Of a DNA stretch of 50,059 bases, positions 8,472-11,180 are shown piece after piece. Source of the stretch: Planctomycetota bacterium (GTDB taxonomy: Bacteria > Planctomycetota > Phycisphaerae > Phycisphaerales > SM1A02); the NCBI GenBank assembly GCA_003671075.1, contig QWPT01000012.1, positions 1 through 50,059 on the forward strand. The letters run 5' to 3'. Within the stretch, counting starts at the first letter, position 1. Every line of letters starts with the position of its first letter. The translations under genes and the position numbers were made by a program. Under the pieces are notes generated by a model. The model was not told where the DNA came from. It did not search any database and was given only the letters and a program-made list of their open reading frames with translations.

Positions 8472-8584
8472 GGCGTAGCCTTCAGTTGCGCACGGGTTCG
8501 TGGCACCGTGCTATCGGCCGAGTCGGGGCGGGCTCTTCGGGAATTGGCAAGCGGAGTCACCGCTTTGGGCGACAAAGAGCGTTC

Positions 8585-9106
8585 ATGAGCACCCAACTGC
8601 CCGCCCTTCGGATTGGACATGGATACGACCTGCATCGCCTCGAACCCGTGGCGCCCGCCGGCGCGGGACGGCCTTTCGTGCTTGGCGGTGCGCGGTTTGA
8701 CCATCCGCTCGGTCCAGTTGGGCACTCGGATGGCGATGCGCTGTTTCATGCGGTGGTCGATGCCCTCCTCGGCGCGCTCGGAATGCCAGATATCGGACAG
8801 TCCTTCCCCGATTCCGACCCAGCGTGGGAGGGAAAGGACTCGGCATTCTTCGTCGAAGCAGCCCGCACCAAGGTCGCCCGCGCCGGATTTGAGGTCGTGA
8901 ACATCGATGCCACGGTGATCTGTGAGCGCCCAAAGTTGTCCGAGCGCAAGCGGGAGATGATCGGAAACATCGCGCGCCTGCTCGGCATCGACGCTGCGCG
9001 GGTGAATGTCAAGGGCAAGACCCACGAGCGCGTCGACGCCGTCGGCGAGGGGCGCGCGGTGGAGGTCCATGTGGTGGCATTGTTGGCAGCGATGTCTACG
9101 CGATAG
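8585..9106 (+). CDS. ispF: 2-C-methyl-D-erythritol 2,4-cyclodiphosphate synthase
   Basis: IspF cyclises CDP-ME-2-phosphate to MEcPP, releasing CMP, in the MEP isoprenoid pathway. The protein shows GHGYDLHRL (metal-binding Asp-x-His), FDHPLGPVGHSDGDALFHAVVDALLGALGMPDIG (described here by its key HSDGD and DALLGA parts), the FPDSDP loop, and the closing region KGKTHERVDAVGEGRAVEV. Length from the ATG at 8585 is 173 aa, close to the family norm of about 160. An upstream in-frame start would add 33 residues outside the fold, so 8585 is preferred. It is a single gene here, not fused to or next to ispD. Confidence 0.95.
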   Translation: MSTQLPALRIGHGYDLHRLEPVAPAGAGRPFVLGGARFDHPLGPVGHSDGDALFHAVVDALLGALGMPDIGQSFPDSDPAWEGKDSAFFVEAARTKVARAGFEVVNIDATVICERPKLSERKREMIGNIARLLGIDAARVNVKGKTHERVDAVGEGRAVEVHVVALLAAMSTR

Positions 9107-9204
9107 GTCCGCGCGACCGCCGCATCGGTGCGAGATCGGCCGTTGTCCTGTTACGCTCTTCCGTCCAAGCCCCCGTTCTGGCGGCTGAAATTGGAGATGT
9201 CTGC

Positions 9205-10335
9205 ATGCGCGCGATCGTCACCGGCCAGATTGGAGTCGACAAGAAGCCCTACCTTCGGGCGGTGAAGGAAGCTGCGGGGATGCGCGGCGACCACGTCGAG
9301 CTCTTTAATCTCGGCGACCTGATGTACGCGGAGGCGCCTGATGTGCGCGCGGGCCGGATTCTCGATCTGCCTATCTCCCGACTGTCGACCCTCCGACGGG
9401 CTGCGTTTAAGGATGTCATCGCGACGACCCAGCCAGCGAAGGACCACCGGAATGTCATCGTCAACACCCACGCCACCTTTCGCTGGCGCCATGGGCTGTT
9501 CTCGGCGATCGACTTCGACCAGATCGCCAAGCTCGAGCCCAACATGTTCATCTGCCTGGTGGACAATGTCGAGGTGGTGCACCAGCGCCTCCACGCCGAG
9601 CACGAGATCGACGCGACACTGAAGGACTGCATGGTCTGGCGCGAAGAGGAGATCCTCGCCACCGAGCTTCTCGCCCAAGCGATGGGCTGCCAGAACAATT
9701 TCTACATCCTGTCGCGCGGGCGTTTGCAGGACACGGTGGAGACGGCGACGCGGCTGATCACTCGGCCGACGATGCGCAAGGTCTACCCGAGTTTCCCCAT
9801 GAGCCATGTGGTGGACTTGCCTGATGTTCTGGCGGAAATCGACCATTTCCGCGCTGAGCTCGCCCGCCACTTCATCACCTTTGATCCCGGCGATGTGGAC
9901 GAGAAACTGCTGCTCGATCGAGCGCTTGCGGCGGCCCGCGATGGCAAGGACTGGATCGAAACCGCTGCTCACAGCTTCGGCGCGCGCGCGGGACGCAGCA
10001 TTCGCGTCTCGGTGCGTGAGGTGCTGGATATCGCCGGCGACATCGACGGGCAGATCTACATGCGCGATTTCAAGCTCATTGACCAGAGCGACATGATCGT
10101 GTCGCTGGTGCCTGAGCTGGCCAACGGCACTCCTGGACTTTCGAGCGGTGTGGAGCGCGAATTGCACCACGCTTGGGAGCACACCAAAGAGGTGTATGTC
10201 GTGTGGAAGCCGAGGAAGGCACCGAGCCCGTTCATCACCGAAACCGCGACGAAGATCTTCCCGACCGTTGATGCGGCCCTTGCGTACTTCGAGTCGAAGG
10301 GCATGTTCCACCCCGGCGACCTCTTCGGACGCTAA
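9205..10335 (+). CDS. Archaeal-adenylate-kinase-like P-loop domain fused to a nucleoside-deoxyribosyltransferase-like domain, 376 aa
   Basis: The N-terminal 190 residues start MRAIVTGQIGVDKKPYL, followed by VELFNLGDLMYAEA, RRAAFKDVI, NVIVNTHATFRW and MFICLVDNVEVVHQRL. This order of motifs recalls the archaeal-type adenylate kinase (AdkA) fold. The phosphate loop is degenerate: GQIGVDKKPY in place of GxPGxGKT/S, keeping one Lys but no following Ser/Thr. The C-terminal part (about 265-365) has SVREVLDIAGDIDGQIYMRD, LIDQSDMIVSLVP, GTPGLSSGVERELHHAWEH and KEVYVVWKP, a pattern like nucleoside 2-deoxyribosyltransferase-type Rossmann proteins (D...sD.ii...GT..E...A). A nucleotide-related role is inferred; kinase activity is doubtful. 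A GGAG lies 8-9 nt before the ATG. The gene lies between ispF and truA, and 32 bp separate it from truA. Confidence 0.65.
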   Translation: MRAIVTGQIGVDKKPYLRAVKEAAGMRGDHVELFNLGDLMYAEAPDVRAGRILDLPISRLSTLRRAAFKDVIATTQPAKDHRNVIVNTHATFRWRHGLFSAIDFDQIAKLEPNMFICLVDNVEVVHQRLHAEHEIDATLKDCMVWREEEILATELLAQAMGCQNNFYILSRGRLQDTVETATRLITRPTMRKVYPSFPMSHVVDLPDVLAEIDHFRAELARHFITFDPGDVDEKLLLDRALAAARDGKDWIETAAHSFGARAGRSIRVSVREVLDIAGDIDGQIYMRDFKLIDQSDMIVSLVPELANGTPGLSSGVERELHHAWEHTKEVYVVWKPRKAPSPFITETATKIFPTVDAALAYFESKGMFHPGDLFGR

Positions 10336-10367
10336 CCGCGACCCGGGCACCCCGGAGCCAGACCGCG

Positions 10368-11180
10368 ATGCCGCGCTACAAGCTGACCATCGCCTACGAC
10401 GGCACCGACTTCCACGGCTGGCAACGGCAGGAGCCCGCGGATGCCCCGGCTCTGCGAACCGTGCAGGGAGTCATGCAAGAGGCGGTGACCGACCTGCTGC
10501 GGCAGAAGGTCGAGGTAGTAGGCGCGAGCCGAACTGATTCGGGCGTTCATGCGATCGGGCAGGTTGCGGCGTTCACCGCCGATGTGCGCGTGCCGCTCGA
10601 GCGCCTGGCGCAAGCGATCACCGCCCGCCTCCCCCGCGATGTACAGGTGGTGCGCGCCGAACGCGTCCATGACTCCTTCAGCCCGATTGGCGATGCGCGC
10701 AGCAAGTGCTACCGCTACACGATCGAGCACACCAGCCATCCTCACCACCCGCGTCCGCTCTTCGACCGCAATCTGGTGTTCGCGACACCGCACACGCTCG
10801 ACCTCGCGCGCATGCAGGAAGCGGCGGGCCACATGATCGGAACATACGACTGCGCGAGTTTCGCGCAGATCGACCATGGGCGTGCGACCACTGTGCGCAG
10901 CGTGCTCGACTGCGTAGCGCGTTCGCCCAGCCCGCGACGGATCGAGATCGAGGTCGCTGCTAGCGGGTTCCTCTACAACATGGTTCGCATCATCGCGGGC
11001 ACGCTGTTGGAGGCGGGGCGCGGGCGCATCGATCCAGCCGATCTTCCGCGGATCATCCAGGCTCGCGACCGCCGCGGCGCGGGACCGACGCTTCCTCCGC
11101 AGGGACTCTGCCTTCGCTGGATCTGGTACGGAGCGGCAACTGCACTGCACACACCTGCGGAGGGTACGCCGTGCGATTGA
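10368..11180 (+). CDS. truA: tRNA pseudouridine(38-40) synthase
   Basis: TruA isomerises uridines 38-40 of the tRNA anticodon arm. The frame has the diagnostic YKLTIAYDGTDFHGWQRQ start, the catalytic ASRTDSGVHA motif (Asp near residue 56), DVQVVRAERVHDSFSPIGDARSKCYRY, YDCASFAQ, and the C-terminal SGFLYNMVRIIAGTLLEAGRG. The 270-aa length is normal. It lies 32 bp after the adenylate-kinase-like fusion gene and its stop overlaps the next gene by 10 bp, so the three probably share a transcript. Confidence 0.96.
   Translation: MPRYKLTIAYDGTDFHGWQRQEPADAPALRTVQGVMQEAVTDLLRQKVEVVGASRTDSGVHAIGQVAAFTADVRVPLERLAQAITARLPRDVQVVRAERVHDSFSPIGDARSKCYRYTIEHTSHPHHPRPLFDRNLVFATPHTLDLARMQEAAGHMIGTYDCASFAQIDHGRATTVRSVLDCVARSPSPRRIEIEVAASGFLYNMVRIIAGTLLEAGRGRIDPADLPRIIQARDRRGAGPTLPPQGLCLRWIWYGAATALHTPAEGTPCD

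Follow-up and report, generated by a model that had tools for sequence, protein, structure and literature searches.

A Class-Wide Planctomycete Fusion of an Altered Adenylate-Kinase-Like Domain and a Putative Deoxynucleotide N-Hydrolase Domain

Results and Discussion

A 376-aa protein encoded in the planctomycete DNA analyzed here (a window of 50,059 nucleotides) joins a half that resembles archaeal adenylate kinases (AdkA) to a half with the predicted fold of nucleoside 2'-deoxyribosyltransferases (NDT) and of the human N-hydrolase DNPH1. It is quite probable that this fusion protein is a nucleotide N-hydrolase. The fuller reading, which we favor with more reserve, is that of a deoxynucleoside-5'-monophosphate (dNMP) N-hydrolase whose attached domain, derived from an adenylate kinase, does not phosphorylate but probably serves to sense or hold a nucleotide. 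A regulatory role of the N-terminal half is possible, if somewhat doubtful, and the idea of a core, class-defining enzyme in which a former adenylate kinase senses nucleotides and thereby turns a dNMP N-hydrolase on or off is put forward as a tentative suggestion.

The Fusion Gene and Its Distribution

The fusion gene occupies positions 9205..10335 of the plus strand, stop included, as read from the open reading frame. The frame, its coordinates and the motifs quoted in the initial annotation were all confirmed (VTGQIGVDKKPY, FNLGDLMYAEA, VIVNTHATFRW, LIDQSDMIVSLVP and SSGVE). On the same strand, the ispF (YgbB) frame (8486..9106, with the Pfam-scanned part starting at 8612; PF02542, E 4.8e-53) ends 98 nt 5' of the fusion gene, and truA (10368..11180; PF01416, E 7.3e-38) begins 32 nt 3' of it. 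The annotated position just upstream of truA is correct, but its use as a hint to function did not hold up. Among the loci of close relatives with sufficient room, truA follows in 55 of 79 and ispF precedes in 58 of 77, while this context occurs in none of the first 60 loci read, which were chosen for diversity and are mostly distant. Since the arrangement is confined to close relatives, it says little on function, and a function read from ispF and truA was rejected as synteny of close relatives only. A 399-aa open frame also runs antisense over the fusion gene (window 9151-10350, minus strand), which is probably a by-product of base composition.

When the same fusion was sought across Planctomycetota, a six-frame search (E ≤ 0.001) of 198 genomes of the same class found it in 170, usually as a single copy, and in 139 of the 155 class genomes with a completeness of 90% or more and a contamination of 5% or less. 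The listed matches from genomes other than that of the window show 50-89% identity, and most are full length. The recurrence in 170 of 198 class genomes indicates a real gene and not a chance frame. A draw of 392 genomes from the phylum gave 39 with a match, namely 38 of 41 class members (membership being read from the sorting of the genome table by kinship) and a single one (G406) of the 351 genomes drawn from outside the class. The G406 copy is possibly a stray contig, since it lies on a contig of 6.6 kb in an assembly of about 1020 contigs.

In a scan of contigs, the best 80 of 469 relatives all shared 74-93% identity with the window protein, and the names of these closest relatives were mostly planctomycete, often Phycisphaerales or Phycisphaerae. 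Three records named Kuenenia, Limnohabitans and Chitinophaga (L034, L042 and L071) carry the gene of this class at 79-91% identity, so that these names of metagenome-assembled genomes look wrong. One genome (G154) holds two copies (L125 and L126) on distant branches of the tree, one of them grouping with the order of the window, which reflects either horizontal transfer or contamination. A phage, plasmid or defense origin was considered and rejected: no relative of the fusion was matched in viral contigs, plasmids, phages or PHROGs, and no PADLOC defense model matched the window protein at E 10 or a distant homologue described below (L191) at E 1.

An Adenylate-Kinase-Like Half with an Altered P-Loop

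The N-terminal domain, delimited by predicted fold and hhalign, spans residues 1-187 (9205..9765, plus strand). An AlphaFold2 model of the full protein, built on 87 aligned relatives, reached a mean pLDDT of 93.3 and a pTM of 0.91, and residues 1-186 of this predicted model superimpose on the archaeal adenylate kinase 3h86_A with a VIA Z of 20.7 (rmsd 2.0, 180 residues aligned), with which 6pjw and 6ln3 tie. Archaeal adenylate kinases also head the Foldseek ranking for this half, and they are the best solved-structure matches by sequence. The Pfam model AAA_17 matches with E 1.1e-9 (39.1 bits at a cut-off of 27) and is present in all 87 relatives, and hhalign against five AdkA sequences gave a probability of 97.5 (P 5.7e-12) over residues 3-132. 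This profile alignment ends before the lid arginines (RDxxRxR region), and the NCBIfam adenylate kinase model PRK04040 scores 34 bits, below its cut-off of 155 bits. Structure prediction and structural search, together with AAA_17, bear out the earlier assignment of this half to an archaeal-AdkA-like fold.

The five AdkA sequences share a P-loop of the form GVG[KG][ST]. In the window protein, the corresponding residues 7-14 (GQIGVDKK; 9223..9246, plus strand) carry Asp instead of Gly12 and Lys instead of Ser/Thr14. Among the 219 sequences with a complete P-loop, Gly12 is kept in none (Asp or Glu in 213) and Ser/Thr14 in three, and the smaller set of 87 gave 0/87 and 2/87, respectively. The missing Ser/Thr, originally noticed in the window protein, is accordingly a family-wide trait, while the loss of Gly12 had been overlooked. 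The P-loop Lys is retained in 206 sequences and replaced by Arg in the remaining 13. By alignment to 1nks, the DTH of archaeal adenylate kinases corresponds to NTH at residues 87-89 (9463..9471, plus strand); over 226 sequences, residue 87 is Asn in 225 and Ser in one, residue 88 is Thr or Ser, and His89 is invariant. Within the set of 87, R64-R65, H89, R93, FRW 92-94, G97, KD 140-141 and WREEE 145-149 do not vary, and judged from these alignments the nucleotide-monophosphate side of the N-terminal half is very conserved.

On this reading of the alignments, the ancestor of the N-terminal half was an archaeal-type adenylate kinase, and residues used for Mg-ATP phosphoryl transfer have since been lost from it. 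Loss of the P-loop and DTH residues would abolish phosphotransfer, and this half is likely to be non-phosphorylating. However, a deviating P-loop is not proof of an inactive enzyme, since the solved methanococcal AdkA sequences have Gly where the P-loop Lys stands. The original idea of a domain that binds but may not phosphorylate nucleotides is supported by the folds and the altered P-loop.

The genome of the window (G000) gave no PF00406 match over the cut-off, which first suggested that the fusion might be its adenylate kinase. This absence, shared with eight other genomes including G182 (9 of 198), may be an assembly gap in G000, which is 97.6% complete. A PF00406 match of the adenylate kinase family over the cut-off is found in 189 of the 198 class genomes, G084 of the same genus among them; the fusion is therefore not simply a stand-in, and the view that it is the genome's replacement adenylate kinase was rejected.

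A DNPH1-Like C-Terminal Half

The C-terminal domain was delimited by predicted fold to residues 188-370 (9766..10314, plus strand). In the predicted model, residues 188-367 match the 2'-deoxyribosyltransferase 7o62_C with a VIA Z of 16.0 (128 residues aligned at an rmsd of 1.9) and human DNPH1 (9i57_A) with a VIA Z of 15.0 (132 residues at an rmsd of 2.7), and matches with the DNPH1/NDT fold for residues 185-373 range from Z 12 to 16. At the level of sequence, the Nuc_deoxyrib_tr model (Pfam PF05014, cut-off 28.8 bits) was found at E ≤ 0.1 in 16 of the 87 relatives, the best of them at E 0.027, and did not match the window protein at E 1. Comparison of the C-terminal profile with human DNPH1 by hhalign gave a probability of 23 (P 8.8e-4), where 20 shuffles reach at most 7.1. 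A PDB search with the 77-aa C-terminal piece found nothing, and one with the full profile returned only adenylate kinases below E 0.02; by sequence, this half is therefore without a significant solved relative. The sequence link to DNPH1 is weak and the fold relation, as seen in the model, clear, so that the NDT-type fold proposed at the outset was recovered by structure with a weak trace in sequence.

The DNPH1-type residues nevertheless stand out in conservation. According to hhalign, Asp288 (10066..10068) pairs with Asp80 of DNPH1, Ser313 and Glu319 in SSGVERE (residues 313-319; 10141..10161) with Ser98 and Glu104, and Ser341 (10225..10227) with Ser128' of the second subunit, all on the plus strand. 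Each of the four is invariant (226/226). In a study of DNPH1, Asp80 is described as the acid, Glu104 as the nucleophile, and Ser98 and, from the other subunit, Ser128' as phosphate-binding residues (PMC10603095). Outside the stretch aligned by hhalign, Tyr194 (9784..9786, plus strand; 226/226) matches Tyr24 of DNPH1 by eye, and Asp227 (9883..9885, plus strand; 225/226), part of the FDPxD at residues 226-230 that is nearly invariant in the 87 relatives, lies by eye near Glu55.

Two features point to the kind of substrate. The Tyr of DNPH1 is described as suiting deoxyribose and a Phe in MilB as suiting ribose, which separates deoxyribo- from ribonucleotides (PMC10603095). Since Tyr194 is invariant, a deoxy substrate is predicted. 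Ser98 of DNPH1 is taken here to occupy the same position as the Asp or Asn of nucleoside-level NDTs. That Asp/Asn holds the 5'-OH (PMC12884076), and it is absent from the fusion family, where Ser313 takes its place in 226/226; the invariance of this phosphate-type Ser favors a nucleotide rather than a nucleoside as substrate. For Arg30 and His56, the base-recognition residues of DNPH1, no counterparts could be placed in the C-terminal half.

A Distant Homologue

One class genome without a close match (G011) encodes a 421-aa homologue (L191:580-1842), which aligned to fusion residues 52-340; identity over the 332 alignment columns is 23%, with an E of 4e-7 in this single comparison. In a wider alignment, Y194, D288, S313 and E319 are conserved in this protein, whereas D227 and S341 are not; Gly12 and Ser/Thr14 are likewise missing from its P-loop (GPTGTQKH). 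Its model is of moderate quality (pLDDT 70.2); the N-terminal half matches AdkA (Z 15.8), and none of the best 50 structural matches fell on the C-terminal half. A homologue of this type was found in one of 24 class genomes searched, all of them fusion-less. Searching the 392 phylum genomes with it gave five weak matches (E 3.8e-4 to 9.3e-4), two of them outside the class, of which one (L210) was judged spurious because a long membrane-protein frame runs opposite to it, and the other (L208) contains internal stops. The two-domain design may predate its class-wide form, or the G011 protein may be a fast-evolving offshoot; on both views the P-loop has been lost in each.

Gene Neighbors

At least 13 of the 170 fusion genomes, in families f12, f16, f19 and f22, have a deoC gene 3' of the fusion gene and in the same orientation; this figure is a lower bound obtained by comparing position lists by eye after the class had been searched with TIGR00126. 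In 11 of the 13, the gap between the matches is 27-246 nt, and in the other two 1.06 and 2.6 kb, whereas in G023 and G136 deoC lies on the opposite strand at a distance of 3.4 and 5.5 kb, respectively. The gene was identified in one representative by NCBIfam TIGR00126, with 242 bits at a cut-off of 117. Reading out the loci recovered the same 13, ten of them with only 3-77 nt between the fusion stop and deoC. Altogether 120 loci were read; G154 contributed two of them, and the family of the window and G406 one each. The first 60, picked to cover diversity when no link to deoC was yet suspected, contained five cases, all eight loci picked for a known nearby deoC (L231-L238) contained it, and 52 further loci picked regardless of deoC contained none (L239-L241, 0/3; L242-L290, 0/49). 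As L231-L238 were fetched for deoC, the pooled 13/120 is biased upwards, and we rely on 13 of 170 genomes instead.

The deoC adjacency is a minority feature, and in the order to which the window belongs the fusion is flanked by ispF and truA. Several members of f19 and f22 are without this neighbor, and contig ends may cut some loci. When the fusion proteins are arranged in a tree, the f16 case stands apart from the f12/f19/f22 group and the deoC label needs seven changes, so that the pairing was gained or lost more than once. With regard to whole genomes, deoC is present in 144 of 170 with the fusion versus 9 of 28 without it (Fisher p 2.9e-8, a test that ignores kinship and assembly gaps), counted from genome lists copied by hand after dropping seven weak deoC matches (E > 1e-5); the search did not find deoC in 26 of the 170.

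Of the 120 loci, 13 have a LOG-type gene 3' of the fusion gene and in the same orientation, at a distance of -3 to 765 nt (L133, L138, L140, L184, L254, L256, L264, L266, L272, L273, L275, L283 and L285). All belong to f10, where they make up 13 of 21 loci, and two representatives score 169 and 176 bits with TIGR00730 (cut-off 96). Two unrelated putative nucleotide glycosidases, the fusion and the LOG-type protein, are found side by side in this family. Further neighbors are, in two f14 loci, a deaminase gene 111 and 166 nt 5' of the fusion, one of the two being assigned to PF00383, and, in one f10 locus, a MazG-like gene 31 nt 5' of it. In four f8 loci (L136, L258, L260 and L270), a dihydropteroate-synthase-like gene, named by sequence reading, starts at or next to the fusion end, which makes a second close pairing, and para-aminobenzoate-type genes, named in the same way, lie beyond deoC in f19/f22. 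Both kinds are folate genes.

Proposed Mechanism and Alternatives

From predicted folds, conservation, P-loop loss and gene neighbors, we infer a scheme of catalysis, substrate, dimer and regulation. By homology, the 5'-phosphate of a dNMP would be gripped by S313 and by S341', the latter probably contributed by a second subunit. Attack of Glu319 on C1' would give an ester between sugar and enzyme, with Asp288 protonating the departing base, and water would then release 2-deoxyribose 5-phosphate, a step with which the deoC neighbor is in agreement. DeoC, identified by its family model, would split the 2-deoxyribose 5-phosphate. The N-terminal half probably binds a nucleotide and, more speculatively, may gate or feed the hydrolase in a manner that is PpnN-like in principle.

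The initial annotation had envisaged base exchange or nucleotide sensing for the C-terminal half. Its fold was confirmed, but the deoC and LOG neighbors favor nucleotide N-hydrolysis over base exchange or pure sensing, as does the invariant Ser pair. We consider it unlikely that the protein acts mainly as a deoxyribose-5-phosphate transferase, exchanging the bases of deoxynucleotides as phage DmtZ does, with the N-terminal domain supplying or selecting the base or nucleotide. The fold and the catalytic Glu and Tyr are the same in such an enzyme, and DmtZ, a single NDT-family enzyme, does both reactions (PMC12884076); an adjacent deoC, however, needs free deoxyribose 5-phosphate, and DmtZ is modeled with phosphate residues other than the DNPH1-type Ser pair (PMC12884076), which is invariant here. 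More improbable again is a protein in which neither half is catalytic on free nucleotides, that is, a sensor or nucleic-acid-modifying factor using both folds to bind nucleotides. The conserved FRW, KD, WREEE and FDPxD motifs, for which there is no evident AdkA or DNPH1 counterpart, would fit such a factor, yet binding alone would not call for the invariance of the DNPH1 catalytic and phosphate set, and the deoC and LOG neighbors speak against it as well.

With regard to the N-terminal domain, a working kinase with a non-canonical P-loop, which would make the protein a bifunctional kinase and N-hydrolase, also has a low probability. The P-loop Lys (or Arg), His89, Arg93, Gly97 and the Thr or Ser at residue 88 are what such an enzyme might retain, the methanococcal AdkA sequences are without the P-loop Lys as well, and a bifunctional HGPRT/adenylate kinase fusion is known (PMC7326950). 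Against this stand the replacement of Gly12 in all 219 sequences (by an acid in 213), a Ser/Thr14 kept in only 3/219, the loss of the DTH Asp in 226/226, and the Adk-family protein that 189 of 198 class genomes already possess. A non-phosphorylating domain attached to a dNMP N-hydrolase remains our preferred reading.

Comparison with Known Systems

To our knowledge, dNMP N-hydrolases are known chiefly from mammals, where DNPH1 is a drug target, and now from phages with DmtZ. DNPH1 (RCL) resembles the C-terminal half in fold, in the Asp acid, the Glu nucleophile, the two phosphate Ser and probably the Tyr, but it is without a kinase-like domain, its sequence is barely recognizable in the comparison, and its Arg30 and His56 could not be placed in the fusion. 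AdkA (3h86, 6pjw, 6ln3, 1nks) shares the N-terminal fold over 180 residues and the TH segment; it stands without a second domain, however, and in the fusion family its P-loop Gly, Ser/Thr and DTH Asp are replaced.

The nearest precedent found is DmtZ, alone or joined to DutZ. DmtZ and DmtZ-DutZ of Z-DNA phages represent an NDT-family nucleotide hydrolase, which one phage carries fused to a second nucleotide-handling domain, and DmtZ was assayed together with DeoC (PMC12884076). The partner there is a dUTPase-like dNTP hydrolase in a phage gene (PMC12884076), whereas the partner here is adenylate-kinase-like and the gene a core bacterial one. PpnN (YgdH), described as a nucleotide nucleosidase gated by attached (p)ppGpp domains (PMC6717881), works as a precedent for the mode of action, but its catalytic and regulatory domains differ from those of the fusion, and a separate LOG-family gene adjoins the fusion in f10. 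A literature search of titles and abstracts, with subscription papers mostly outside its scope, found no description of this fusion among the publications listed. The folds are known; what is new is their combination, the altered kinase and the clue to a pathway.

If the proposed function is correct, these planctomycetes would have a route from deoxynucleotides to base and deoxyribose 5-phosphate and on to DeoC, without nucleoside phosphorylases. This would be a new route of deoxynucleotide disposal or pool sanitizing in most genomes of one bacterial class, and a fresh case of a nucleoside monophosphate kinase turned into a regulatory domain.
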